Virus record (IMG/VR): IMGVR_UViG_3300033816_000828
Span: 16,156-80,155 of that record
Source of the DNA: a virus
Strand: one strand, 5' to 3'
DNA length: 64,000 nucleotides
Within the stretch, counting starts at the first letter, position 1; each line of letters starts with the position of its first letter. The translations under genes were made by a program, and so were the position numbers. The notes below the pieces were generated by a model, which was not told where the DNA came from, searched no databases, and was given only the letters and a program-made list of their open reading frames with translations. Of the stretch, positions 7,440 to 63,920 are shown piece after piece.

Positions 7440-8020
7440 TAATAGTTAGATAATTGAGGCAAGTAGTTGACCCATTCTTCTGGCATATCGTCTTTTATTT
7501 TATTCAAAAGCTCACACACAGGCAAGTATTTCAAATGTTTATTGGGTTTTATTGGGATATTGCACAATGGCATATTGGCCTCTTTGGGTGTTCTATTTCT
7601 TTTTTTTCTATTACATTCTATACAGGCTGTTACTATATTTGTCCAACATGTTGCTGATCTATTATCATCATTCCATTTAGATTTCGGTATTACATGATCA
7701 TATGTTAAAGTATTTATATCATATTTTTTATTACAATACTGACATGTATAATTATCTCTTATATAAATATTTTTTCTAGAAAATGTCACCAGTTGGTGAT
7801 TGATCTTAAAAAATCTTTGAGTCTTGGCTATTGCCGGTATAGGGTATTTTTTATCGACCCCATTAATATAATCATTTTTGTAAAAGTCTAATATTTCTAT
7901 GCCATACTTTGGATTATGTTCAAATCTCATAGACCATATCATAGCTCTTTGCCATGATATAATATTTAGAGGACTATAATCAGCATTTAATAATAAACAT
8001 TCTTTATGCTTGTGTTCCAT
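7439..8020 (-). CDS. HNH endonuclease
   Basis: A protein of about 193 residues with a full HNH core: CQYC zinc knuckle, the LTYDHVIPKSK catalytic His strand, then NIVTACIECNRKKRNRTP with the second knuckle. The N-terminal part (PLNIISWQRAMIWSMRF) matches the LNADYSPL domain of phage and bacterial HNH proteins often found next to replication genes. It cuts DNA, possibly as a free-standing homing or repair nuclease. The ATG at 8020 is preferred over the TTG at 8026; both overlap the PhoH gene. Confidence 0.8.
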   Translation of the reverse strand: MEHKHKECLLLNADYSPLNIISWQRAMIWSMRFEHNPKYGIEILDFYKNDYINGVDKKYPIPAIAKTQRFFKINHQLVTFSRKNIYIRDNYTCQYCNKKYDINTLTYDHVIPKSKWNDDNRSATCWTNIVTACIECNRKKRNRTPKEANMPLCNIPIKPNKHLKYLPVCELLNKIKDDMPEEWVNYLPQLSNY

Positions 8021-8732
8021 TTTCAAAAGTGTCTAATCTTGATAAGATCTTGGCTATAATAGGATTTCTGACAATATCTGAAGATTCTAGTTTACAATTT
8101 CCAATACCTTCAATTCCGTCCAAAGCGTTGATCATATTAATAAAACCTCCTTGTAGATGTCGGCTCAAGTCGGACTGACCTATATCTCCAGTAAGAATAA
8201 GTTTACTGTCATGACCTACTCTTGTCAATAACATTTTTAATTGCTCATATGATGCATTTTGGCATTCGTCAGCAACTATAAAACAATTATGAAAATTACG
8301 ACCTCTCATAAGCCCTAATGGGACAACTTCGATTTTATTATTTAGTTTTAGAGACGCATATTGTGCCATACTGATAAAATGATTAATTTCATCAATAATC
8401 GGCAATAAATAAGGATGTAATTTTTCTTCTGCTGTTCCTGGTAAATATCCAATTTTTTCCCCAGCTTCTATAACTGGTCTTGTAATAACAATTCTATTAA
8501 CTTTCTGGTCCAATAAATATTCTAACGCCATACCAATTGCTATATGAGTTTTACCTGATCCGGCCAAACCTTGACAAAAAGTTATGGTATTTTCAGCAAC
8601 AGTTCTTATATACTCTTTTTGATTATCGCTTCTTGGTTTTAATTTATTTCTAAATATATTACCAATTTGGGTATGATTATCAATATTATTAGTTAAATCA
8701 ACAGCTTTTTTCTTTTTGTTATTTTTTCTCAA
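8004..8732 (-). CDS. PhoH-like ATPase
   Basis: A 242-residue P-loop ATPase of the PhoH family. Walker A is CQGLAGSGKTHIAIG, the RPVIEAGEKIGYLPG segment that follows is diagnostic for PhoH, and Walker B is FIVADECQNASYEQLKMLLTR. Cellular PhoH is linked to phosphate stress and RNA handling, and many large phages carry it, though its role in infection is not settled. N-terminal Lys-rich residues 2-9 may be a nucleic-acid contact. It lies between HNH and the RNR gene and overlaps HNH by 17 bases. Confidence 0.88.
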   Translation of the reverse strand: MRKNNKKKKAVDLTNNIDNHTQIGNIFRNKLKPRSDNQKEYIRTVAENTITFCQGLAGSGKTHIAIGMALEYLLDQKVNRIVITRPVIEAGEKIGYLPGTAEEKLHPYLLPIIDEINHFISMAQYASLKLNNKIEVVPLGLMRGRNFHNCFIVADECQNASYEQLKMLLTRVGHDSKLILTGDIGQSDLSRHLQGGFINMINALDGIEGIGNCKLESSDIVRNPIIAKILSRLDTFENGTQA

Positions 8733-8754
8733 TGGTTACCCTTTATGAATAAAG

Positions 8755-10947
8755 TTAAATTAGACATGCACCACCAGCGCAACTAATTTCCTCTATTCCG
8801 ACCGTGTTATCCTCCGTTTCAGATAGTTGCGTATAATCAACCTTCTTAAAACTATTAAACAGATCGCAGTATATTTTCCAATTATATACATCTTTCATAC
8901 AGTAAGTTAATCTTCTAGTATCCCCATCAAAATATTTACCGGCAAAGTTTTTCATTTTTGTCACAAATATTAATTTGGATTCGTGATGATCTTTGCTTGC
9001 TTGATTCAAAGTTACATAATCACAAGCTGCCCATAGATTATTATTGAATGCATTAAGAGCTAATTCAATTAAACCAGAGCACCATAATGCAGCATCCCCA
9101 TACTCTTTAACAATTTCACGACTTGTATAAACTGTTGTAAATGGTGCTTGTGGATAGTCTTTGTCTCCACTTTGTGGGATTAAACTAATACCAGCAAAAT
9201 ATTTACGATTATCATAAATAAATTTGGTTACATCAGTCCACTCTTCTGGTTTAACTGTGACAGTGTTGCTCACATTATGGCTAAGATATTCTTGGGTACA
9301 TAATGATTTATTTTTACCAGAATAGACCCAATTTTTTTGAGTATCTTTTACAATAGATAACATTTCTACTGCTGGTAATTGATTCTTTAATTTAGCACCG
9401 TCTGGTACTTCTATTGGGAATTTAATTACCTCATCAGTATTATTGGCTGACCAACTAGACTTCTCACAGGCTTGCGGGTTTAGTTTTTTAAAGTGCTGAT
9501 ATGGTGCTTCTAAAATATTGGCCTGTACATGTCTTATATATCGTTTGGCGTGATGAGGATGAATACCAGAACTTGTTCCCAGCATACTTGAACTGGTGCC
9601 TTCTGGCTTTAAACAGGTCACTCTAGCGGCCTGATTGATATTGATCTTTTTTGATAAAACCTTATTAGTTTCAACGGCCACTTTAGCTCCTGTTCTTAGG
9701 ATCTTTTCTGATAGTACAAGGTCATGCTTTTCCATAGTGCCAGTTAGAGAAACTCCTAATAAGGCCTCTCTTGCAAAGATTTTGCAACTGGTCTCTCCGA
9801 GATAGTCTAATTTAGTAAAGCCAGCTTGTAAAGTACCAATAATTGCTGCCGCTTTGCATCTTTCATAAAAGTCATTTTCGTCTTCTATTGATGAACAATT
9901 AATAGTAGAAAGATTGCATCCTTGCCATCCGCTTTTTCCGCTTTCCTCATCTACTGGCCACATACCTACCTCAACACATGGATTAAATGTCATTTCAGTA
10001 GAATCACTCCAAATAAATCCTGGTTCTCCAAATTCTTTAACAGACTCCATAAGTGTGTTGAATTCTTCAAACGTAACACTGTCTCTGAGTAAAAGGGCTG
10101 AATTGTTGCTTCGTGCTCTTTGGGGATTATCTATATACCAATTGCCAGTTTTAGCTTTTGCCATTTCTTCGTCATCATGACTAAACAATGCAAGACTAGC
10201 AGATCGTCTAACTCCGCCACTCAATACAGCGTCGCTACTATGCATAATAATATCATAAGCATCAATTGGACGTAATTTTTTTTGTCCATTAGCAATACAA
10301 CGGTCTAGTAGGGTTCGTATTTTTTCTAAGCCGTTCGCTAATGGTTCATAACCAGGAGCCTTACCTACTCCAGAAGCCAAAGAAGATCCTTTTGGTCTAA
10401 TATTAGAATAGTCAAATAATATGTGACAATTTTTATATTGTTGGAATTCTTCGATAGGTTTACTAAAGTAACTACTCAATAAAACACCTAAAGCGTCAGA
10501 CCAACCCTCAATACTATCATCAATTACATATTTAGTGCCTATGTCCTCTGGAGGATTGTGTTCTAATGTTGGTAATTTAGAAACATGGTGTTTTTGTACA
10601 CTAAACCCCGTACCACTACCACACAATAATAGCCAGAAACACTCTTGAAAAAATCTTAATCTGTCACAATAAGAACTTGTACAATTATATATTTTGGCAT
10701 GTCTTTTTAAAATTGGTTCGCCACCAAATTGTAATGCTCTTTGGCTTCCAAGAACTTTCTTTTTATACATCATATCATAAGCCCAATCTATATCGTCTTT
10801 TATATCAAACCCACCATAAACAGTGTGCATCATATTGCGAACCCTGTCTACTGCTTCCTTCCAAGTTTCACGACGATTTTTTTCTTCGATCCAACGAGCA
10901 TATTTACTGACAAATGTATAATTCTGTAGTTCTTGAAGCGAGGACAT
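8755..10947 (-). CDS. Adenosylcobalamin-dependent (class II) ribonucleoside-triphosphate reductase
   Basis: 730 residues, close to the 739 of the Lactobacillus leichmannii monomeric RTPR. It reduces NTPs to dNTPs with coenzyme B12. The central FNPCVEV supplies the active-site thiyl Cys, ISCAGGACLI at the C-terminus carries the swinging redox Cys pair (C723 and C728), and YNCTSSYCDRL matches the N-terminal active-site disulphide strand. The gene has an AGGAG ribosome site. It sits next to dCMP deaminase, so this is the dNTP supply unit. Unlike the T4 NrdAB pair it needs no separate small subunit, but the host must provide or import cobalamin. Confidence 0.93.
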   Translation of the reverse strand: MSSLQELQNYTFVSKYARWIEEKNRRETWKEAVDRVRNMMHTVYGGFDIKDDIDWAYDMMYKKKVLGSQRALQFGGEPILKRHAKIYNCTSSYCDRLRFFQECFWLLLCGSGTGFSVQKHHVSKLPTLEHNPPEDIGTKYVIDDSIEGWSDALGVLLSSYFSKPIEEFQQYKNCHILFDYSNIRPKGSSLASGVGKAPGYEPLANGLEKIRTLLDRCIANGQKKLRPIDAYDIIMHSSDAVLSGGVRRSASLALFSHDDEEMAKAKTGNWYIDNPQRARSNNSALLLRDSVTFEEFNTLMESVKEFGEPGFIWSDSTEMTFNPCVEVGMWPVDEESGKSGWQGCNLSTINCSSIEDENDFYERCKAAAIIGTLQAGFTKLDYLGETSCKIFAREALLGVSLTGTMEKHDLVLSEKILRTGAKVAVETNKVLSKKININQAARVTCLKPEGTSSSMLGTSSGIHPHHAKRYIRHVQANILEAPYQHFKKLNPQACEKSSWSANNTDEVIKFPIEVPDGAKLKNQLPAVEMLSIVKDTQKNWVYSGKNKSLCTQEYLSHNVSNTVTVKPEEWTDVTKFIYDNRKYFAGISLIPQSGDKDYPQAPFTTVYTSREIVKEYGDAALWCSGLIELALNAFNNNLWAACDYVTLNQASKDHHESKLIFVTKMKNFAGKYFDGDTRRLTYCMKDVYNWKIYCDLFNSFKKVDYTQLSETEDNTVGIEEISCAGGACLI

Positions 10948-11036: not shown

Positions 11037-11504
11037 TCATAATACACCACCCAAGTCTTTAAGCCAAGAAAGATTAGGTTGTATATAAATAATTTCTATT
11101 CCGCTCATTGAAACGAAATTTTTAAAAATATTTTTTGCTTCTTCATCGAATAAATGTGTGCCATGATTATTTGACATAACTACTTTCTTGATACCTTCTT
11201 GCCATAGTGCCATAATACAATCATTACAACTTTGACCAGTAACATATGCTATTCCATTATCTGGTCTTACAACACAGTTTGATAGAGCATTTCTTTCGGC
11301 ATGAATCATCCACGGATATTTTTCTGGCCGTGTTTTAGGTAATAAATCATCATCAAGTCCGCGAGGAAAGCCATTATATCCTACGCCTAGAATTCTATCC
11401 CTAGAATCTGTGATAACACAGCCGTGCTGTGTTTGCATATCGTGACTACGTTGAGAAACAACTTTAGCCAAACCTAAAAAATAATCTGTCCACGATGGTC
11501 TCAT
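11037..11504 (-). CDS. Deoxycytidylate (dCMP) deaminase
   Basis: Converts dCMP to dUMP for dTTP synthesis. Zinc ligands: His-Ala-Glu in MIHAERNALSNC gives the catalytic His and Glu, and SCNDC gives the two Cys. The length (155) and C-terminus fit T4 Cd and bacterial ComE-like deaminases. The ATG at 11504 is only six bases below a TATAAT hexamer (see the promoter), so its mRNA is probably leaderless. No Shine-Dalgarno site lies before the ATG. Confidence 0.9.
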   Translation of the reverse strand: MRPSWTDYFLGLAKVVSQRSHDMQTQHGCVITDSRDRILGVGYNGFPRGLDDDLLPKTRPEKYPWMIHAERNALSNCVVRPDNGIAYVTGQSCNDCIMALWQEGIKKVVMSNNHGTHLFDEEAKNIFKNFVSMSGIEIIYIQPNLSWLKDLGGVL

Positions 11505-11510
11505 GGAACT

Positions 11511-11538
11511 ATTATAACAAAATGGATGGTCTGGTCAA
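11511..11538 (-). promoter_or_regulatory. Sigma-70-type promoter for dCMP deaminase, probably leaderless
   Basis: A TTGACC hexamer (11533-11538), 16-base spacer, then a perfect TATAAT (11511-11516). Counting seven bases from the end of the -10 puts +1 at 11504, the A of the deaminase ATG. The next gene downstream of the promoter therefore has no 5' leader. Strength is judged from the hexamers only. Confidence 0.6.
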
Positions 11539-11541
11539 GTT

Positions 11542-11790
11542 TTATTTTGTTGTGAGCTTGTTATATAAAACTAGAGATAAAACGCCACCAGCAACACCCA
11601 TAATTACTCCTGCTGGAGAAACAGCTTCGTAACTTCCTAGTAGATAAAGTATGGCACCTCCCATATATGAGCCAGCAACACCTAATGCTACTGTTTTTAC
11701 AAAACCAAAATTTTCTTCACCGGGTACTATACTTTTGGCGATAGAACCCACAAATAAACCATATACGCACCACACTAGAATATTAAACAT
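11542..11790 (-). CDS. GlsB/YeaQ/YmgE-like small membrane protein
   Basis: 82 residues with three Gly-rich hydrophobic segments (about 3-20, 30-50 and 58-75). The KSIVPGEENFGF and GVAGSYMGG pattern is typical of the transglycosylase-associated membrane family. The name is historical; the molecular function is unknown. In a phage it could alter the inner membrane. It overlaps the next gene upstream by eight bases. Confidence 0.65.
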   Translation of the reverse strand: MFNILVWCVYGLFVGSIAKSIVPGEENFGFVKTVALGVAGSYMGGAILYLLGSYEAVSPAGVIMGVAGGVLSLVLYNKLTTK

Positions 11791-12175
11791 TTGCTGCCTC
11801 CACTAAGGTTATGACTTCATCATCCTTGAGATCTGCTCCTGTATCTAACATAGCATTTAATAATTGCATACCATATTTAGCATATTGTTCTTTTGATAAT
11901 TCTCGTCTTAATATTCTTTTTATTCTCATTTTTGTAAACATACCACGACGAGAACTATATTCTTTGATTTCTGATCCATAAAGATTGTATTTATCTTGAG
12001 CAGTATACTCGCCAGATAGTTTATTTTTATTGCACTCTTGTAGTACTCTGATAACTGTTAGAATAATACTAATCATCATAAGTATAGCAATAACACTACC
12101 AAATTTTTCGTCTTCGGGTACTCCAGCTTTATTTAAAACTTTGGCAGAAATAGCTTTTAACTTTTCATTATTCAT
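11783..12175 (-). CDS. Hypothetical membrane-anchored protein
   Basis: About 130 residues from the ATG at 12175, which overlaps the upstream stop as ATGA. One clear transmembrane helix lies near residues 28-48 (GSVIAILMMISIILTVIRVL). It is followed by a basic segment (MFTKMRIKRILRREL) and an acidic C-terminus. No family recognised. It lies in a run of small membrane proteins before the papain-like peptidase. Confidence 0.6.
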   Translation of the reverse strand: MNNEKLKAISAKVLNKAGVPEDEKFGSVIAILMMISIILTVIRVLQECNKNKLSGEYTAQDKYNLYGSEIKEYSSRRGMFTKMRIKRILRRELSKEQYAKYGMQLLNAMLDTGADLKDDEVITLVEAANV

Positions 12176-12498
12176 TTTCGTATTACTCTGCATCCATTTG
12201 GAGTACAAATAGTACCACTTTTAATTACACCGGCTTGAGGAAGACTCTGCATATGTGTTCCTGTTTCTGGTTCACAATATCCACAATCAACCATCTTGAT
12301 ACCGTCGCCACTAAGATACTTACCAGTACCCTTGCATACTGGACAATTTTTTCTCTTATATTTTGTATCTGGCATTTCGATATGTGTTGATTTGATTATT
12401 CCACCAGCCAGAACAACAGATGCTGTAGTAGATCCTTTGTATTGAGATGATCCAAATAATACGGTTGCTATTAGTACCAACCCTAATAATTTATTCAT
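12172..12498 (-). CDS. Exported protein with a DnaJ-like CxxCxG zinc pair
   Basis: 108 residues. Residues 1-20 form a signal peptide (MNKLLGLVLIATVLFG), so the protein is probably exported or membrane-attached. Residues about 51-75 hold CPVCKGTGKY and then CGYC, the two halves of one DnaJ-type zinc module. The C-terminal ICTPNGCRV has one more Cys pair. Role unknown; redox or structural zinc binding outside the cytoplasm is possible. Its start overlaps the 55-residue gene at 12491. Confidence 0.6.
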   Translation of the reverse strand: MNKLLGLVLIATVLFGSSQYKGSTTASVVLAGGIIKSTHIEMPDTKYKRKNCPVCKGTGKYLSGDGIKMVDCGYCEPETGTHMQSLPQAGVIKSGTICTPNGCRVIRK

Positions 12499-12658
12499 TT
12501 TTTACTCTTGGAAAGATTCTTTTTCTTTTTGGTTTTGGATGATCCACGCTATCATCAGCTTCTGTCTTTTCTGGTACTATTAATTTAAGTACCGCCAAGA
12601 TAAAAGTTAATAGCATACTAATTAGTCGTTGCAAAGCGATTCTATCTATTAGTCTCAT
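12491..12658 (-). CDS. Small membrane protein (55 residues)
   Basis: The ATG at 12658 opens a 55-codon frame ending at 12491, where its TAA overlaps the next gene's ATG region. Residues 7-28 are hydrophobic (IALQRLISMLLTFILAVLKLIV), and the tail is charged, ending in a basic KPKRKRIF stretch. This is the form of a small tail-anchored membrane protein. No family recognised. It fills the gap between the zinc-pair protein and the peptidase gene. Confidence 0.5.
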   Translation of the reverse strand: MRLIDRIALQRLISMLLTFILAVLKLIVPEKTEADDSVDHPKPKRKRIFPRVKNE

Positions 12659-12669
12659 TATTATACACC

Positions 12670-14712
12670 TTATAAGTAATCAAACCCATAATCTGGTAAT
12701 TTTTGTACAGGAAATCCATTAAAATTACTAAAGGCATAAGTTCCATTTTGTTTAATCATGCCTTCTGCTACGTCACTATGAATTAAGAATGAACCATCTG
12801 GAATTGGACCCCATTCTGGATGACCACCATCATTCCACTTGCCCCAACTGTTTTGTACTAAAAATGCTGTTTCACCATTGGTATCATCGCAGGCTATCCA
12901 AGCCATACAATGAGCCCAACTACCACTAGTTCTAGCAAAACCCTTACTATCTCTTTTATTACTAAAACCATAATTAGAACAGACTGCTAATCCGTAGCCA
13001 TTCGCTAATGCGTCTCGTGCTTCTTCGACACTTTTAATAAGTGATGTGGTTCTAATTTGATGGTCATTAGCTAAATCTAATACTTTATCTGGAACACCAC
13101 GACCACCCCATCCGGCACCTAGCATTCCGTCATATTTACTCAGATCAACAACACCCTTATAATTTTTACGAACAAGTACTCCGCCAATCTTATTAACAAA
13201 TTCAGCAGCTTTACTGCCTGTCATACCTTGACCACTCCAACCACGAGCACCATAAATGGCTTCGGTTGCTCCTCTTGCTACCCAACTTTCCTTTTCACCT
13301 AATATATCAATCTCTACTGCTCTACTAATATCACATGCGTTTCTTGTGCCGTGTGAGACACAGTTGTGTGAAATTATTCCATTTGCTATAAAAGAATGAT
13401 CATCTTTAACGTTTATACAATAAACATTATTGGTATAAGTTTCTTTTATTATTTTACTTATGGGAGCTAATAGACCTAAACTACAAGTTAACCGATTTTG
13501 TTTAGAACGCACTTTTGTCATCGTTGATAGTTCGGGATAAATCTTATATACCTGATCCCCATATAAATCTACCTGATACGCTTCTTTGCTTTTGTTTCTT
13601 GGAGGTCTAATTGTAATGGTATGTTGAATTTGTAAAGAAATTAATATATCTGAAATATTATGTATCAGTGTTTTAGATACCGATACTCCTACTAATTTTC
13701 GTCTTTTTTCTGTGGTAACACTACCATCTCCATCAGACCAGCCTCTTAAAAATGATAGCTTGTGCCATTTAGAAGAATTAAGAATTTCATTATCGAGATT
13801 TTTGGTCCATTGATTACCTTTAACAAAGTGAGCAAATAGTCTGGCTACAATAATATTGGAACATCTCACACAACAGACATTTTGATCAACACGATTAAAA
13901 ATACTAGATTTAGCACCAAATATATCAGATAACAAATATACTATACGGTCTCTGAGTTGAGTTTCTTTGATATTTAGATTAAATGTTATTCTTTCTTTAT
14001 TTGCTCCATCAACACCTCCTTCTGCGGCATAAAGTCCTATAAGCCACATAAGATCATTAGAAAGTTTGATAAATCTTTTAAGTTTATTCTTACTAAATTT
14101 AACTCTAATAGTATCATTAATAATTTCATATTTTAAATCTGAAATATAGTTACTTAGATCTAAGATTTTATCATCGACCGAATTATTATTTTGTTTTGGC
14201 AAAACTAATAGATCGCCTTCCTTTAAAGATTTAGCTTCTATCCATTCATAACCACTATCATTAAATACCATGACTTTGTGATCATTTGTCATAGATAAAA
14301 TTTTATCATACTTTTTAATATGTACATGGTTAATTTGTTTTTCTGTTGGCAATTTATTAATTAGTTCATAAACCGGTTTAGGTCTGTTATTGTGTGTAAT
14401 AACGCTTTCTCCAATTTGTATATCTTCGATATTTTTAAAAGAACCATCAGACATTAATACTTTGGTACCTTGGATTAAACAATCACCAGTAACTTGTCGT
14501 TCTTCATAAGGTTTTTTATCAAACTTCAATACGCTTTTGTATGGTGTTGATAATTTACCTTTACCACTATTTGTTATTCTAGAACTAGCATCACCAAAGT
14601 ATGGATATTTTAAAATTTCCATTAAGTGATCAAATTCTAGTTGATTCCAAATAGCTCCTTGAAAGCCTTGTCTATAGTTATTATAAAGATCAATTGGTGA
14701 TAGTCGAGCCAT
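12670..14712 (-). CDS. Papain-like (C1A-type) cysteine peptidase carrying an intein
   Basis: The 680-residue precursor is a peptidase of about 307 residues split by a 373-residue intein. The host protein has the papain triad: the nucleophile C451 (GD then CVSHGTRNAC), His601 in WAHCMAW, and Asn621 in QNSWG, with Gln73 placed as the oxyanion-hole residue. Before splicing, residue 78 (intein Cys1) stands at the nucleophile position and the true nucleophile is the +1 residue of the C-extein. Activity should appear only after splicing (inference). There is no signal peptide. Neighbours are small membrane and exported proteins; a role in host wall or protein digestion is possible. Confidence 0.85.
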   Translation of the reverse strand: MARLSPIDLYNNYRQGFQGAIWNQLEFDHLMEILKYPYFGDASSRITNSGKGKLSTPYKSVLKFDKKPYEERQVTGDCLIQGTKVLMSDGSFKNIEDIQIGESVITHNNRPKPVYELINKLPTEKQINHVHIKKYDKILSMTNDHKVMVFNDSGYEWIEAKSLKEGDLLVLPKQNNNSVDDKILDLSNYISDLKYEIINDTIRVKFSKNKLKRFIKLSNDLMWLIGLYAAEGGVDGANKERITFNLNIKETQLRDRIVYLLSDIFGAKSSIFNRVDQNVCCVRCSNIIVARLFAHFVKGNQWTKNLDNEILNSSKWHKLSFLRGWSDGDGSVTTEKRRKLVGVSVSKTLIHNISDILISLQIQHTITIRPPRNKSKEAYQVDLYGDQVYKIYPELSTMTKVRSKQNRLTCSLGLLAPISKIIKETYTNNVYCINVKDDHSFIANGIISHNCVSHGTRNACDISRAVEIDILGEKESWVARGATEAIYGARGWSGQGMTGSKAAEFVNKIGGVLVRKNYKGVVDLSKYDGMLGAGWGGRGVPDKVLDLANDHQIRTTSLIKSVEEARDALANGYGLAVCSNYGFSNKRDSKGFARTSGSWAHCMAWIACDDTNGETAFLVQNSWGKWNDGGHPEWGPIPDGSFLIHSDVAEGMIKQNGTYAFSNFNGFPVQKLPDYGFDYL
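13363..14481 (-). mobile_element. Intein with LAGLIDADG homing endonuclease
   Basis: Residues 78-450 of the peptidase precursor. Splicing blocks: CLIQGTKVLMSDGSF (block A), TNDHKV with the conserved His145 (block B), YCINVKDDHSFIANGI (block F), and the end ISHN followed by Cys+1 (block G). Two LAGLIDADG-type motifs lie between them: residues about 221-232 (LMWLIGLYAAEG) and 321-332 (FLRGWSDGDGSV). It should excise itself and join the exteins between Asp77 and Cys451. The nuclease could drive copying into intein-free alleles. Insertion is exactly before the catalytic Cys codon of the host peptidase. Confidence 0.93.
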
Positions 14713-15210
14713 TTATTTTGCTCCTTGTGAACAAGCCCACGCCAATGCTTTAAAACCCTCAGCAGCCTGAATGCGGGATTCTCTATTTAATGCTACACTA
14801 TCATCGCCAATAGCCTCAACTATTACAGCCTTACAAGCTTCTGCTAATTTAGGATATTTATTTTTAATATCCAGTTTGAGCATAGTTCCCGCTAATTTGT
14901 TGGCTTGTCTAATTTCTTCTGTATTTTTAATAACCTCATCATCACCATCTAAGGTTACAAGAGTTGCTAAATCTACATATAAACTAGATAATCTTTTACC
15001 ATCAGTTTTACGATCAGGATCACCGTCTTTTAAAACCCTAACAACCTCATCAGCTTTAGCTTTTAAGCCTTCTCTAACCGGTGCAGATAATTCTGCAATA
15101 TCAACAACAACAGGTTGTGGACGATCTACCAATGATCCAAGATCAGGTTTGAATAATCCAATTCCTATTAGTATAAAAGCTAATGCTAATAATAATGTTT
15201 TAGTATTCAT
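14713..15210 (-). CDS. Exported or membrane-anchored hypothetical protein
   Basis: 165 residues. The N-terminal TLLLALAFILIGIGLF is a signal peptide or anchor. The rest is helical with many Ala, Lys and Asp, without a catalytic motif. It lies directly upstream of the peptidase gene and follows two other membrane proteins, so it may belong to the same envelope-facing unit. No family recognised. Confidence 0.55.
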   Translation of the reverse strand: MNTKTLLLALAFILIGIGLFKPDLGSLVDRPQPVVVDIAELSAPVREGLKAKADEVVRVLKDGDPDRKTDGKRLSSLYVDLATLVTLDGDDEVIKNTEEIRQANKLAGTMLKLDIKNKYPKLAEACKAVIVEAIGDDSVALNRESRIQAAEGFKALAWACSQGAK

Positions 15211-15584
15211 GTTGACTCCTTATCTCCACAAACAACAGGACTTAAAAATGGAAACATTTGATCAGCAACTTCAACCGCTTTGTCGCAGCCACATTCAGAC
15301 GCTAAATCTCGTGTTTGTTTCCAACTTACAATGAGCTTAAAAAATATATCCTCTTTAGTTGTAACTACAGGTTTGACTGATGGAACAACTACAGCAACAG
15401 GAGTTACAGGTTTTAATGGAGATACATTCTTAAATTTTTCTACTAATCCGCCTAGAAATGTTTGAACAGGGCTTAGTTTATCCTTAAATAATACCCATAG
15501 TATTAAACCAACACCGGCATACAGGGCCAAATCCATTGGTCCAACCTTGCTAGCAAACTCTTCAAAAGTTTCTGTGTAATTCAT
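15207..15584 (-). CDS. Hypothetical membrane protein
   Basis: 125 residues with one membrane segment near residues 17-35 (LALYAGVGLILWVLF). A Val/Pro-rich stretch (PVTPVAVVVPSVKPVV) follows, then a C-terminal soluble part with a CGCD motif. The start and stop overlap neighbours by four bases each, so it is coupled to genes on both sides. Function unknown. Confidence 0.55.
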   Translation of the reverse strand: MNYTETFEEFASKVGPMDLALYAGVGLILWVLFKDKLSPVQTFLGGLVEKFKNVSPLKPVTPVAVVVPSVKPVVTTKEDIFFKLIVSWKQTRDLASECGCDKAVEVADQMFPFLSPVVCGDKEST

Positions 15585-15967
15585 AGTCCAGCCTCTCTTT
15601 TAATAAAAACCCCAGTATTTCTAAAAATTGTAACAGTAGCATCAATAGTAGCGCCCACCATAATCATGAGGATATTTTTGATGTACTTATGTATAATAGG
15701 CTCAACAAGATTAGGAACAAATGGAACATCTACCACTAAAAATACCTTATCGTAAAAACTATTTAATAGTTCTAATGCTATGGCCTTTTTATCTGGACCA
15801 CTCAAATCATTAGCTACTTTTTCTATAATTTGAACTAAACTTGCCGTGGCCAATTGTAATAGTTTCCACGCTTCACCAATCGCTATATTTTTAATGCCTG
15901 ATATTGAATTTTTTGTTTCTTCTGTAATCTTATTAAATTCTACTAAAATTAATTCTTTCGGTGTCAT
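15581..15967 (-). CDS. Hypothetical protein with C-terminal hydrophobic segment
   Basis: 128 residues, helical. Residues about 92-112 (YIKNILMIMVGATIDATVTIF) are hydrophobic and may be a membrane helix. The first half is amphipathic (EEFNKITEETKNS type). It overlaps the large FN3 gene by four bases. Nothing identifies its role. Confidence 0.5.
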   Translation of the reverse strand: MTPKELILVEFNKITEETKNSISGIKNIAIGEAWKLLQLATASLVQIIEKVANDLSGPDKKAIALELLNSFYDKVFLVVDVPFVPNLVEPIIHKYIKNILMIMVGATIDATVTIFRNTGVFIKREAGL

Positions 15968-58812: not shown

Positions 58813-59517
58813 TTAGTCAAATCTATATGGTTGAGACTTGTCCCATATCTGTTGATATCCAACCATATTTTCTGTTTTCCATTGAGTAGAATTATTAATT
58901 TCATTAATATAGTGATTAGATAATTTATATAAATGTATTTTACTTCTATCGCTATTATATCTATTTGATATTTTTCTAATTTTATACATATCAGAAATTA
59001 TATCTAAAATAGCCTCTGTATATTCAATTAAATCTTCATATCGAATAAAAATATAATTATCTACTAAATATGGCATATACAGGTATAAAAATTGTAATTT
59101 ATTAGATCTCATATCAAAAATATCTTGATATTTCTCTTTTGTATACCAATGAGAATCACAAAATTTGTGATAATCAGATAAACCTCTGGCAGATTGCCAA
59201 GGTTTAATATCTAAAATATTGGATGTATCTAAATGATATGGAGTTTTTTTCATACCTCCTATCCAATTGTAAATATTTCTAACAATGCCTATAAATAAAG
59301 TATTGTGTGCTGTATTTAAATTACTCCATTGAGAACAACCAAAAAAATGCTTATGACCATAATCCCAAGTGATTGGAATATGAAATACATCTTTGATTAA
59401 TTTTTCTACCCAATTAGTACCAGAATGTCTTTCCCCATAAATAGTAAAATTTTGGATGGAATAATTATCTATTGTAGAATAGAATTGGTTATATTTAAAT
59501 AGTTCTATTGCAACCAT
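58813..59517 (-). CDS. Sulfotransferase-like protein
   Basis: 234 residues. FTIYGERHSGTNWVEKLIKDVF is a P-loop of the sulfotransferase type (compare SGTNW), and LFIGIVRNIYNWIGGMKKTPYH resembles the second binding loop. YIFIRYEDLIEYTEAILDII matches the YEDL segment of sulfotransferases. PAPS use is implied by motif only. It overlaps the ligase gene by 23 bases. Confidence 0.55.
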   Translation of the reverse strand: MVAIELFKYNQFYSTIDNYSIQNFTIYGERHSGTNWVEKLIKDVFHIPITWDYGHKHFFGCSQWSNLNTAHNTLFIGIVRNIYNWIGGMKKTPYHLDTSNILDIKPWQSARGLSDYHKFCDSHWYTKEKYQDIFDMRSNKLQFLYLYMPYLVDNYIFIRYEDLIEYTEAILDIISDMYKIRKISNRYNSDRSKIHLYKLSNHYINEINNSTQWKTENMVGYQQIWDKSQPYRFD

Positions 59518-60808
59518 GAAGTATTTTAAATGTTGGAAATCTTAGACTAATACCACCATCTTGGTTTTTGGTTTCCTCAAAATACTGGACTGTGATAATC
59601 TTTCCAAGAATCTTTTTAGGATGCTGATAAAATTCTTGTCTTTGGTCAATAGCGAAACCGCTACCAACCCTAACAATATGTTCCTTATGCTTAATCATCA
59701 CACAAGATAGCATAGTTTCTTCATGCTCTCGACCATTCAAGACATATCTAAATGGCCCCATTTCAACATCAACAACCTCATACTCGTCATCAAAAAACTT
59801 CTTAACTTTCAGAAGGTCTTTGCTACGCTTGCCCTTATATGGCTCGTCTGCTCGCAGCATTATTCCTTCCCAACCATAATCAGCGGCTTCTTTAACCCAC
59901 TCTTGAAAATGTTCGTCATTATGAATCAGTTCTTGTTCCAGCAGAGTAAGGCATGGACATTCGTTCTTGCTCATAGTCTCTGTCAGATTCGCCAAGCGAA
60001 TAGAATACGGACGATTCTTCTCGCCCTTCTTGCTATAAAATTCATCGTGCGTAATCATATCAAAAATCTTAAAAGATGGATTAGGAATAGTATGATCCTT
60101 CTTCTTTAGTTGTTTCATCACTCCCTGAAAGTCCTCATTACCATCATCATCAACAAGACAAAGTTCTCCATCAAATACTACATTAGTAATGTTAAGAGCC
60201 TTAATACCATCCCTAACGATGCCAAGAGTATCAAACTCTTTTCCCGTGCGGGAATAGAAGGTAGTATCACCATTACTATCAACAATCCCAATACATCTAG
60301 CACCATCAATTTTTCTGCTAACATACCAGCCATCCTTCCAATCTACCAGTTTAGGCTCGTACTTATCTGCCAGAGCAACACTAAACTCTGGAATATGGTC
60401 AGGAATAGCCTTGTTGATAATCTTGTCACCAGCACGGGTTTTCAAATCCTTGTCGATAATACAATGAATCAGTTCCTCGTATTCAGAGTAGTGTTCGATA
60501 AAACTATTCACAGCAGAGATAGCATCATGTCCAGTAATCTTTCGACTCTTTAGAGCATCCAACAAATCAAAGAAATTTTTATATTCGTTCTTTCTGGCTA
60601 CAAGATGATTCTTCTTCTTCAAATTATCGCTGGTCACATTATATTGCCACAACGGATGATAAGTATAAAGTAAAATATTTTTAGTGAAAGATGCTGCGGC
60701 ACTGTTATGTCCGCAATAATCCAAAATAATTCCTTCCTTATCTTTAGTGCTGCTCGTAGCACGAAGATCACGAACCATTCCCATAACATAATTAAAATCG
60801 TGAATCAT
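59495..60808 (-). CDS. ATP-dependent DNA ligase (T4 gp30-like)
   Basis: 437 residues. The adenylated Lys is K166 in YVSRKIDGAR (motif I). VVFDGELCLV is motif III, and EGIMLRADEPYKGKRSKDLLKVKKF holds motifs IV and V. It joins nicks in replicated and recombined phage DNA, and its length is close to T4 gp30. A strong promoter and AGGAG site precede it, so it is likely early. Higher GC than average here. Confidence 0.9.
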   Translation of the reverse strand: MIHDFNYVMGMVRDLRATSSTKDKEGIILDYCGHNSAAASFTKNILLYTYHPLWQYNVTSDNLKKKNHLVARKNEYKNFFDLLDALKSRKITGHDAISAVNSFIEHYSEYEELIHCIIDKDLKTRAGDKIINKAIPDHIPEFSVALADKYEPKLVDWKDGWYVSRKIDGARCIGIVDSNGDTTFYSRTGKEFDTLGIVRDGIKALNITNVVFDGELCLVDDDGNEDFQGVMKQLKKKDHTIPNPSFKIFDMITHDEFYSKKGEKNRPYSIRLANLTETMSKNECPCLTLLEQELIHNDEHFQEWVKEAADYGWEGIMLRADEPYKGKRSKDLLKVKKFFDDEYEVVDVEMGPFRYVLNGREHEETMLSCVMIKHKEHIVRVGSGFAIDQRQEFYQHPKKILGKIITVQYFEETKNQDGGISLRFPTFKILHGCNRTI

Positions 60809-60833: not shown

Positions 60834-60862
60834 AGTATACCATACGCTATCTGTATTGTCAA
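60834..60862 (-). promoter_or_regulatory. Sigma-70 promoter for DNA ligase
   Basis: TTGACA (60857-60862), 17-base spacer, TATACT (60834-60839). The leader is about 19 bases and carries the AGGAG site. It shares GTATGGTAT with the rIIA promoter. Confidence 0.7.
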
Positions 60863-61236
60863 GTATCGTCAATACGGGTCTTGCTTCTTAAATTATTTAT
60901 TTTAGCAGCAAGTAAATAGTTCATGGCTTTCGTGATACTCTCAAGAGTATCTCCTAATTGTCCTAGTCCCCAATTGCAGTTTTCACAAATCCATCCTCTG
61001 AAACTATTATCATCATGATCATGATCTAAACACCATTTATTCTTAAAAGGAATTCTTCCACAGCATTGACAAACATCTGGTTTTGGTGGTGCTTCTTTAT
61101 GAAGTTGATTTCTCAATCTAGAATGTTTTTTGAGACATTGTTTGCATCGTGTATCTAATCCATCAACACGATTTTTATGTTTAGAAAAAGATTTTTTATT
61201 TTTTCTTTTTCCACAATAAATGCAAACTTTTCTCAT
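60859..61236 (-). CDS. Endonuclease VII-like HNH nuclease
   Basis: 125 residues. CIYCGKRKNKKSFS and CKQCLKKH form an N-terminal zinc pair. KNKWCLDHDHDDNSFRGWICENCNWGLGQLGDT is the endonuclease VII HNH core. It may resolve branched DNA or be a homing nuclease. Its ATG overlaps the 39-residue gene upstream. Confidence 0.75.
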   Translation of the reverse strand: MRKVCIYCGKRKNKKSFSKHKNRVDGLDTRCKQCLKKHSRLRNQLHKEAPPKPDVCQCCGRIPFKNKWCLDHDHDDNSFRGWICENCNWGLGQLGDTLESITKAMNYLLAAKINNLRSKTRIDDT

Positions 61237-61353: not shown

Positions 61354-61896
61354 TTATACCTTTATTGATTGACTAACGTTTTTACAAAAATCTATAACTT
61401 GTTCATCAGAAAATCTGTTTCTGGCATAGTTAAACATAAGAGCAACAAAACGAATATTCCCTTTAATATAACCTTTACTATTATCTATTCTATCAACAGA
61501 TGCAGAATATGGTGCTGAAATATTATCGTCACTATATTTTTTTAATACCAGTTTTTGTTTTGTGAATGGACAAATACCGCCTTGTTGTTTCCAAAGCATT
61601 TCCAAGTATTCTATATCTACATCATAGAACTGGTTTCTCTTTTTGGAACTTTTTTTGATTACTTTCATATACCATCTAAAACCAGCATATTTATCTCTTT
61701 GTCTTGTATATTGTGTATTTAAAAAATTATTTTTAAATTTTGTTAGATGTTGTAAATTATTTTTATTTTTCCCAGCACATTTAAGACTACAATAAAATTC
61801 AGTTTTACCCCTTTTTTTCTGTCTTTTTATTTCTGCTGCTGGTTTTTCTGTTTCCTTAGCACATACAGCACATATTATCTTAGTTTTAGTAATCAT
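61354..61896 (-). CDS. HNH-type endonuclease
   Basis: About 180 residues from the ATG at 61896, which has an AAGGAG site; the frame extends further up into the tmRNA but that is not coding. CAVCAKETEKP and YCSLKCAGKNKNN form a zinc pair. GGICPFTKQKLVL and SASVDRIDNSKGYIKGNIRF form an HNH-like core. Probably a homing or free-standing nuclease. It lies directly downstream of the tmRNA. Confidence 0.65.
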   Translation of the reverse strand: MITKTKIICAVCAKETEKPAAEIKRQKKRGKTEFYCSLKCAGKNKNNLQHLTKFKNNFLNTQYTRQRDKYAGFRWYMKVIKKSSKKRNQFYDVDIEYLEMLWKQQGGICPFTKQKLVLKKYSDDNISAPYSASVDRIDNSKGYIKGNIRFVALMFNYARNRFSDEQVIDFCKNVSQSIKV

Positions 61897-61956: not shown

Positions 61957-62311
61957 TGGAGGCGGGCAGAGTCGAACTGCCGTGCTATCATATTTCAAAT
62001 TACATTTTCTACAAGTTTATTTTATTCATAGATTAAATAGGAGTACAGAATAAACAAGACTAATCCTATCTTACCAACTGCTCTTAACCTACAACCCGTT
62101 GGATATTGTAAGTGCAGAGGGATTTAACGACAGACTTTTGATACCTACCCTCAATCGGTATCGCAGTCTGTTACTGCCGTTTTTTATTAGGCAGCAAGGG
62201 CTAACTGATTTGTGCCAGTTAAAGCATTTGGTAGATTTTTAAAGTGGCCCTTCCACCAACCACTACTTGCCAATATAATAATCTTTATGTAGTCGAAACC
62301 TTTACGCCCCC
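61957..62311 (-). ncRNA. ssrA: tmRNA (ssrA) with phage-specified tag
   Basis: The 5' end GGGGGCG with GTTTCGACT after it, and the 3' part with T arm GGCAG TTCGACT CTGCC and CGCCTCC then A, form a seven-pair acceptor (one G-U). The two ends are 355 bases apart, near usual tmRNA size. An internal frame reads PNALTGTNQLALAA and ends in TAA TAA inside a GCTGCC/GGCAG hairpin, as in tmRNA. The resume codon is inferred (CCA). No CCA tail is encoded. The RNA rescues stalled ribosomes with SmpB. The membrane-protein gene above ends at the very first base of the RNA. Confidence 0.92.
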
Positions 62312-62536
62312 TTATTTCTTAAGTACACTTTTTGTATTATCTTCCCAATTTTCTAGTCTCTCAATCTCATTTTTAATCTGCTGAAATTCCATTTGACTAG
62401 TTCCACAACGCCAGAAAACAGAATCAAATTCTAGTTTCTGTAATCTACTATAGAAATGTATATTAAATAGAAAAGACAGTAGTAGTAACCCAATTAAGAA
62501 CGTATAACTTGCTAAATGATTTGAACGATTAGTCAT
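62312..62536 (-). CDS. Small membrane protein ending at the tmRNA 5' end
   Basis: About 74 residues from the ATG at 62536 (AAAAGGAA ahead). Residues about 9-28 form one membrane helix (YTFLIGLLLLSFLFNIHFY). The C-terminal part is a coiled coil (QIKNEIERLENWEDNT). Its TAA is next to the first G of the tmRNA, so the two are probably on one transcript. Function unknown. Confidence 0.5.
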   Translation of the reverse strand: MTNRSNHLASYTFLIGLLLLSFLFNIHFYSRLQKLEFDSVFWRCGTSQMEFQQIKNEIERLENWEDNTKSVLKK

Positions 62537-62603: not shown

Positions 62604-63113
62604 ATGAATCATTGTGCTAATTGCTTTAAAAAAACTAGTAATGCTAAATTTTGTTGTTTGTCTTGTAGTGCTACTTATACTAATAAAACTCATCCAAAAC
62701 GAAAACCTCAATCAAATAATAATGCTAAATGTCCTAATTGTAAAAAGAATTTTCATACTGATTATGCTACACAAATTTGTTGTTCCAAACAATGCTCAAC
62801 CGAATATCGCAGACTCCAGAGTGATAAAATTATTGAACAAGAAGGTTTTGGCGATGGGCATTATCATAATCTTAGAATTAGAAAATATCTTATTAGAAAA
62901 CATGGAAATAATTGCATGATTTGCGGGCAATCTGGAGATAATTGGAATGGAAAACCCATTACTCTTATAGTAGATCATATTGATGGCAAATCCAATAATA
63001 ATAAACTTAATAATCTCCGTATAGTTTGTCCAAATTGCGATTGTCAACTTCCAACATACAAAGCAAAAAATAAAGGTAATAGTTCTAGGAAATATTTTAT
63101 AGTTCAAAAATAA
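62604..63113 (+). CDS. HNH endonuclease, the only clear plus-strand gene
   Basis: 169 residues. Three zinc knuckles lie at the N-terminus (CANCFK, CCLSCSA, CPNCKK). CMICGQSGDNWNGKPITLIVDHIDGKSNNNKLNNLRIVCPNC is an HNH core with a second knuckle pair. An AAGGAG-like site precedes the ATG. It ends just before the 3' end of the convergent tRNA-Ile and faces the rest of the genes. This lone orientation suggests a mobile, free-standing homing nuclease. Confidence 0.75.
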   Translation: MNHCANCFKKTSNAKFCCLSCSATYTNKTHPKRKPQSNNNAKCPNCKKNFHTDYATQICCSKQCSTEYRRLQSDKIIEQEGFGDGHYHNLRIRKYLIRKHGNNCMICGQSGDNWNGKPITLIVDHIDGKSNNNKLNNLRIVCPNCDCQLPTYKAKNKGNSSRKYFIVQK

Positions 63114-63114
63114 A

Positions 63115-63190
63115 TAGGGGATAAAGGAGTTGAACCTTTCTCTTGAACTGCTTATAAGACAGGTGACCACTACCGGCGGTCGCATCCCCC
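63115..63190 (-). tRNA. tRNA-Ile (UAU anticodon)
   Basis: Acceptor GGGGGAT pairs with ATCCCCT (one G-U). D arm GACC/GGTC, T arm AAAGG TTCAACT CCTTT. The anticodon arm is CTGT/GCAG around loop CTTATAA, giving anticodon TAT that reads AUA; the top pair is a mismatch. Variable region is seven bases. The promoter at 63199 starts a transcript at or just ahead of its 5' end. AUA is a common Ile codon in this AT-rich genome. Confidence 0.85.
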
Positions 63191-63198
63191 GTGTTTGT

Positions 63199-63227
63199 AT
63201 TGTATACTATCGACCGATCCCTGTCAA
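63199..63227 (-). promoter_or_regulatory. Sigma-70 promoter for tRNA-Ile
   Basis: TTGACA (63222-63227), 17-base spacer, TACAAT (63199-63204), with +1 expected near 63192, the 5' end of the tRNA. A strong match in both hexamers. Confidence 0.65.
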
Positions 63228-63769
63228 CTCTTGAGATATTTTTCGTAGTAGTTGCGATAAATACTCATAATAATACCACTAGTTGTTCCAACATTTAAAG
63301 ACCGTACACTTCCATAAGTAGGAATAGTTAGAACACAACTACAAGCCATAAGAATTGTTTCTGATAAACCAGCATTTTCTTCTCCAAAAATAAAAATTGG
63401 TTCATCAATATTAGAAAAATCAAAACTAAAAGGATCGAATGTGATTTCTTTGTATTCTGGAATATTATTCTCAATAGCAATTAATGGTCGGCCAGTAGAT
63501 TTAATTACTTTAATAAACTCTTCTTCGGTTTTATAATGAAACATTGGAGTGTAGTGATGGGTTCCTACGCTACCTCTTTTATCCCATTTCTTTTTACCAA
63601 CATAATGTACGCTACTAAATCCAAAAAAATTAGCATTACGAACCATTGTGCTGAGATTAAAATCTCCACCAATATTAATCATAGCAACACTTGCTGGAAT
63701 ACTATTTTTATGACAATAGTTTCCGATTTCTGGCACACTCAACTCTTTAAGACTGTCTATCACGTTCAT
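63224..63769 (-). CDS. SpoU/TrmH-type RNA 2'-O-methyltransferase
   Basis: About 181 residues from the ATG at 63769 (a TTG at 63775 is also possible). The SPOUT knot is clear: VAMINIGGDFNLSTMVRNANFFG (motif 1), IFIFGEENAGLSETIL (motif 2), LTIPTYGSVRSLNVGTTSGIIM (motif 3). It methylates ribose in tRNA or rRNA. It lies next to the tRNA-Ile gene, with the -35 of that tRNA promoter in its last codons. The target is unknown. Confidence 0.88.
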   Translation of the reverse strand: MNVIDSLKELSVPEIGNYCHKNSIPASVAMINIGGDFNLSTMVRNANFFGFSSVHYVGKKKWDKRGSVGTHHYTPMFHYKTEEEFIKVIKSTGRPLIAIENNIPEYKEITFDPFSFDFSNIDEPIFIFGEENAGLSETILMACSCVLTIPTYGSVRSLNVGTTSGIIMSIYRNYYEKYLKS

Positions 63770-63920
63770 TTTCAAGTTCTTTAAGTTTTTGTTCCCAAAT
63801 TTCTCTTTGTTTATACATTTCTATACAATTATTACAAAAATCCGAACTGATATATTCTCTAATATCTGCTAGTTTATTTTTTATCTCCCATATTTTTGTT
63901 TCTAGTTCGTGATTTAGCAT
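63747..63920 (-). CDS. Coiled-coil hypothetical protein
   Basis: About 57 residues from the ATG at 63920, with an earlier ATG at 63995 in the same frame. LETKIWEIKNKLADIREY and EIWEQKLKELENERDRQ form a coiled coil; CNNC in between could bind metal. It overlaps the methyltransferase start by 23 bases. The partner reading frame at 63874 overlaps its N-terminus, so the true start is unsure. Confidence 0.45.
   Translation of the reverse strand: MLNHELETKIWEIKNKLADIREYISSDFCNNCIEMYKQREIWEQKLKELENERDRQS

Follow-up and report, generated by a model that had tools for sequence, protein, structure and literature searches.

A one-piece tmRNA gene with a QLALAA-type tag in a group of large uncultured phages

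Described phage tmRNAs and the gene in the window

A tmRNA is present in 402 of 18,146 phage genomes surveyed, with 133 unique structures, 53 two-piece, and that of the OM43 phage Melnitz is two-piece, with a circular permutation and a link to a glutamine riboswitch (PMC9004378). A tmRNA gene is reported in mycobacteriophage IkeLoa (PMC9670876), and mycobacteriophage DS6A encodes a tag-less tmRNA-like RNA that inhibits the host tmRNA (PMC11915505).

The window, i.e., the whole stretch of 64,000 nucleotides analysed here, comprises bases 16156-80155 of the 80,155-base IMG/VR virus record IMGVR_UViG_3300033816_000828. Genes for a replicative helicase, a UvsX-like recombinase, a ribonucleotide reductase, tail proteins, RIIA and an ATP-dependent DNA ligase are found in it, which agrees with the description of the carrier as a phage in the initial annotation. 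ARAGORN identifies a one-piece tmRNA at 62311-61957 on the minus strand, with the tag GTNQLALAA followed by two stops, and Rfam gives a match to RF00023 at 62311-61954 that covers the full model (1-374) with 112.9 bits and an E value of 2.6e-43. The coordinates of the complete tmRNA proposed in that annotation are exact, and the strand, which had been left unstated, is minus. The covariance score, on which the proposal had been made to depend, is not low, since the gathering score of RF00023 is 47 bits; among the bacterial tmRNAs sampled, it lies at the low end.

The paired ends described earlier form a 7-bp acceptor stem (GGGGGCG/CGCCUCC) with G-U as the third pair, and the T arm is of the standard kind, with the sequence GGCAG-UUCGACU-CUGCC. 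The tag frame reads GGC ACA AAT CAG TTA GCC CTT GCT GCC TAA TAA, and the UAA stop sits in the loop of the UUGCUGCC/GGCAGUAA hairpin, so that the frame ending in LALAA with its stop inside a hairpin is confirmed. Downstream, UUA comes directly after the discriminator A, and CCA is therefore not encoded in the gene. The positions of all of these elements and of the neighbouring genes are listed in Table 1.

A comparison with standard-form bacterial tmRNA (ssrA, RF00023) reveals a full-length covariance match, the G3-U70 acceptor, the T arm, four pseudoknots, the resume codon, the tag and the stop in a hairpin as shared features, whereas the present gene is phage-borne, does not encode CCA and lies in a record with no smpB match. 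Like the Melnitz tmRNA, it is virus-encoded and belongs to a large aquatic-type phage group, but it is one-piece and unpermuted: its ends are in the standard order in both the ARAGORN and the Rfam match, and Rfam gives no riboswitch match in the window. With other one-piece phage tmRNAs, such as that of IkeLoa, it shares a complete structure, a position among tRNA genes and a large phage genome, but it forms a separate lineage with a tag family of its own, G-x-[NT]-QLALAA. The DS6A RNA is likewise a phage-encoded member of the tmRNA family; however, the tag frame in the window is complete and conserved, and the tag-less class does not apply to it.

Table 1. Positions of the tmRNA gene, its parts and neighbouring genes in the window
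Feature	Position	Strand	Basis and remarks
tmRNA gene, one-piece, 355 nt, CCA not encoded	61957..62311	-	ARAGORN, RF00023, covariation in 35 relatives
Acceptor stem, 5' strand; pairs with 61958-61964, including G3-U70	62305..62311	-	95.9% paired, 4/7 compensated (helix 1)
Pseudoknot 1	62230..62264	-	97.7% and 100% paired, 8/11 pairs compensated (helices 5, 6)
Resume codon GGC	62216-62214	-	GGC and QLALAA kept in relatives
Tag frame GTNQLALAA and two stops	62184..62216	-	ARAGORN, coding part 96-128 of the gene
Hairpin UUGCUGCC/GGCAGUAA, tag stop codons in loop	62171..62197	-	94.6% of cells paired in relatives (helix 7)
Pseudoknot 2	62117..62170	-	10/17 pairs compensated (helices 8-10)
Pseudoknot 3	62074..62113	-	10/13 pairs compensated (helices 11-12)
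Pseudoknot 4	62021..62070	-	9/14 pairs compensated (helices 13-15)
T arm	61965..61981	-	5/5 pairs compensated, 98.3% paired (helix 16)
SpoU-type RNA methylase gene	63224..63775	-	PF00588, 7.6e-24; 20/80 loci
tRNA-Ile(UAU), conserved neighbour	63115..63190	-	ARAGORN; under the Rfam gathering score in this window
HNH endonuclease gene, between tRNA-Ile and 74-aa ORF	62604..63113	+	PHROG 10822, 1.1e-20; sporadic, 9/80 loci
74-aa ORF, hydrophobic N-terminal stretch	62312..62536	-	Homologues in 16 related loci
HNH/endonuclease VII-like gene, directly downstream of tmRNA	61354..61896	-	PHROG 3322, 1.8e-20; sporadic, 8/80 loci
Endonuclease VII gene, conserved neighbour	60859..61236	-	PF02945, 7.4e-11; 62/80 loci
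ATP-dependent DNA ligase, conserved neighbour, comparison anchor	59495..60808	-	PF01068, PHROG 114

Distribution and structural conservation among relatives

A search of IMG/VR with the ligase yields 321 encoding stretches, from which 80 loci were kept, a set picked without regard to the tag. Of the related loci, 41 extend 3000 bases or more upstream of the ligase; in 39 of these, the tmRNA is present in the same place, and L033 and L081 are the two loci truly without a tmRNA beside the ligase. Its apparent lack in many other related loci is mostly due to contig truncation or to ARAGORN misses. The tag-region pattern occurs in at least 119 stretches in IMG/VR, and a full-length tmRNA is found in 72 of the 75 new tag-pattern loci examined, the other three being cut by contig ends. 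These counts in the ligase and tag-pattern loci indicate that nearly all members of a large phage group have the gene; the group includes records of 180-224 kb, although the records are metagenomic and may be fragments. No nucleotide relatives are found among 50,697 phage records. Phage tmRNAs as such are already known; what is new here is a lineage of one-piece phage tmRNA.

To assess selection on the RNA, the structure was written from the window sequence and counted on 35 distinct tmRNAs of the relatives (alignment A1). In this alignment, 96.0% of cells pair, compared with 39-47% when the partners are slid by 1-3 columns; taking the structure from one member sequence favours this percentage but not the compensatory changes. 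Such changes are seen in 57 of the 96 base pairs versus 32.0 +/- 2.5 in shuffles, and the covariation score is 0.357 versus 0.148. The compensated pairs cover both tRNA-like stems, P2, the stop hairpin and pseudoknots 1 to 4, and the G3-U70 alanine pair is invariant (35/35) although neighbouring pairs change. Judged by these alignments, chance can be excluded as the source of the structure, and the gene is to be regarded as a selected, functional-type tmRNA because the compensated pairs extend across all domains and G3-U70 does not vary. The resume codon and the tag hairpin, the other two elements on which the initial annotation had staked its proposal, are both supported in the relatives.

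The tmRNA genes also look mosaic, with types of the 5' half shuffled against types of PK2-PK4. In alignment A1 (35 phage tmRNAs), the correlation of pairwise distances between the 5' half and PK2-PK3 is r 0.14, that between the two TLD-bearing halves is 0.50 and that between PK2-3 and PK4 is 0.81. Recombination inside the tmRNA gene is a likely cause of this pattern, and the adjoining endonuclease genes could drive it.

Taken as a whole, this is a widespread uncultured group of large phages whose tmRNA is nearly universal and strongly selected and carries a degradation tag of the host type, and in which no SmpB is detected. Such a group supports the view that ribosome rescue, beyond tRNA supply alone, is worth encoding for a phage, and its tmRNAs provide a deep alignment in which selection on the tag can be tested.

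Host factors, the tag and the function of the phage tmRNA

The gene is very probably a true tmRNA gene of the standard form, belonging to a large tailed phage, that is kept by selection and acts in trans-translation via host factors, as judged from its sequence and conservation. By analogy with established tmRNA biology, the tmRNA would be cut from a polycistronic transcript by the tRNA-processing enzymes (RNase P and 3' trimming), receive its CCA from the host and be charged with alanine by the host AlaRS. Host SmpB, which is assumed here, and EF-Tu would then bring it into ribosomes stalled on broken mRNAs, where it would add (A)GTNQLALAA, after which translation would end and the ribosome would be freed. 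The tagged product would pass to a host protease, also assumed, that reads an LAA-type C-terminus. The benefit to the phage may be, as a guess, the recycling of ribosomes while host genes and transcripts are destroyed in the takeover or cut by RNA-cutting defences.

The initial annotation had pointed to smpB elsewhere in the genome as a companion to look for. This record and 17 related ones, among them records of 224, 187, 187 and 180 kb (possible fragments), give no match to smpB (PF01668), and for this reason the phage tmRNA most probably relies on the SmpB and the proteases of the host. A phage that borrows SmpB from its host is expected to lack the gene, so that smpB is not a defining feature of a phage copy. 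With no phage SmpB found, the tmRNA would have to share that of the host, and this also fits an unlikely alternative in which the phage RNA blocks trans-translation in the host by tying up SmpB, EF-Tu or ribosomes as a competitor or decoy, as an RNA of the DS6A kind is reported to inhibit host tmRNA (PMC11915505). Unlike in DS6A, however, the tag frame, the resume codon, the stop hairpin and all pseudoknots are intact and under selection.

The tags of the 35 distinct tmRNAs are GTNQLALAA (14), GETQLALAA (9), GVNQLALAA (6), GNNQLALAA (3), GNTQLALAA (1) and GKTQLALAA (1), and the remaining one has an altered resume codon. The consensus is G-x-[NT]-Q-LALAA, in which positions 2 and 3 vary among the phages and QLALAA is identical in 35/35 distinct ligase-anchored relatives. 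The last three codons of QLALAA also lie in the stop hairpin, and part of the conservation may therefore come from hairpin pairing rather than from selection on the tag. The altered resume codon is that of L073 (9238-9592), where AGC in place of GGC would give a Ser-initial tag.

To find counterparts, the genomes of 84,980 bacterial and archaeal species were scanned with a G..Q[LF]ALAA-type pattern with TAA/TGA stops only, which yields 38 stretches, 34 of them ARAGORN tmRNAs. The matches are mainly from SAR202/Dehalococcoidia and other Chloroflexota (GNKQLALAA, GDKQLALAA, GETQLALAA and GNNQLALAA); the others include Phycisphaerae (GNTQLALAA) and Bacteroidota (GENQFALAA and GENQLALAA). The tmRNAs of SAR202/Dehalococcoidia, Phycisphaerae and Bacteroidota share with the phage tmRNA a 9-residue tag, a Gly resume codon and the QLALAA end, but are only about 50% identical to it in sequence. 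Exact GTNQLALAA is not found in the genomes of these 84,980 species with the TAA/TGA-stop pattern. The earlier description of the tag as unusual thus holds for the exact peptide but not for its type, which is ordinary because GETQLALAA, GNTQLALAA and GNNQLALAA are shared by the phage group and bacterial tmRNAs. By its sequence, the tag is best described as a degradation tag of the host type, rather than a foreign one, in which only the middle is private. The related suggestion that the phage would tag stalled proteins on its own terms is not borne out, given the constancy of QLALAA among the relatives and the lack of a detected phage SmpB.

The absence of exact GTNQLALAA from the scan and the variation at positions 2 and 3 would also fit a tag altered such that ribosomes are freed without the product going to the host protease, or such that a different protease is used. 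This reading is less probable still than a decoy, as the degradation-type LALAA end is invariant in the ligase-anchored set and QLALAA also occurs in bacteria.

Several routes to the host were followed. The tag is not decisive, as G..QLALAA is common to Chloroflexota, Planctomycetota and Bacteroidota, and protein searches with the ligase, the polymerase and RIIA name no host because the matches are distant and spread over many unrelated phages. Shine-Dalgarno-like sites precede 15 of 40 genes versus 10% at random positions, a moderate frequency that does not decide the host. The phage tmRNAs group in a single deep clade (0.999 in one tree, 99 in another) and are about 52% identical at best to the sampled host tmRNAs, and the Chloroflexota tmRNAs form a separate clade (95) without phages. 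The phages are nearest to Bacteroidota in the tmRNA tree (0.76-0.96), and a joint clade is not rejected (p-AU 0.78), but a Bacteroidota host is not relied on here, given the program's warnings about long branches and dissimilar base composition. Phages are known to pick up ssrA fragments after integration (discussed in PMC9004378), but a recent capture of host ssrA or a decaying, functionless remnant is highly improbable here in view of the deep clade, the low identity, the synteny across the group and the heavy compensatory change, and neither a near-identical host tmRNA nor broken pairs in the phage copies were seen.

Neighbouring genes and an interrupted tmRNA in a relative

On the minus strand, the order is SpoU methylase, tRNA-Ile(UAU), the 74-aa ORF, tmRNA, endonuclease VII and DNA ligase, with tRNA-Leu(UAA) later. 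The stop codon of the 74-aa ORF abuts the first base of the tmRNA, which suggests that the two may be co-transcribed. Similar small ORFs sit before the tmRNA in several relatives. Two different HNH-type genes flank the tmRNA, each in only 8-9 of the 80 loci, and the neighbourhood therefore seems to be a recurrent site for endonuclease genes of this type. Of 50,697 phage records, only 4 contain relatives of the SpoU-type methylase. Left of the window, at bases 11375-15654 of the same virus record (L003), lies a split DNA polymerase (PHROG 405): one gene at 13780-15654 covers profile positions 42-615, a second at 11375-12907 covers 623-1077, and a further ORF separates the two.

In the relative L051 (IMGVR_UViG_3300042907_001518), a 625-nt insert breaks the tmRNA at 7942-8921 within the loop of pseudoknot 1. 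The insert follows the pseudoknot-1 strand CCACU and separates a 5' part (7942-8010) from a 3' part (8636-8921), with both stems of pseudoknot 1 and the tag intact; a 436-nt tmRNA given by ARAGORN at this locus was rejected, as its 5' end is mis-called because of the insert. The insert is bounded by a terminal inverted repeat of 26 nt that includes 19 consecutive exact pairs, and it folds much better than shuffled sequences do (z -9.6). It also encodes a 179-aa endonuclease VII (PF02945, 2.2e-19), whose stop codon is located within the loop of the tmRNA. Those tmRNA introns that have been described to date belong to group I and sit in the T-loop (PMC11915505). The insert has no intron match in Rfam. 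The arrangement is that of a single metagenomic contig: no tmRNA match is found beside 20 relatives of its endonuclease, and it is absent from the 75 tag-pattern loci. The closest analogy is presumably with the intervening sequences of bacterial 23S rRNA. On that analogy, a tentative reading, which we consider possible but doubtful, is that a mobile insert inside a phage tmRNA is processed like an rRNA intervening sequence, with RNase III cutting the stem, to give a non-permuted two-piece tmRNA. L051 is a more surprising lead than the tmRNA in the window, and its tmRNA, should the interruption prove real, would be split in a new way.
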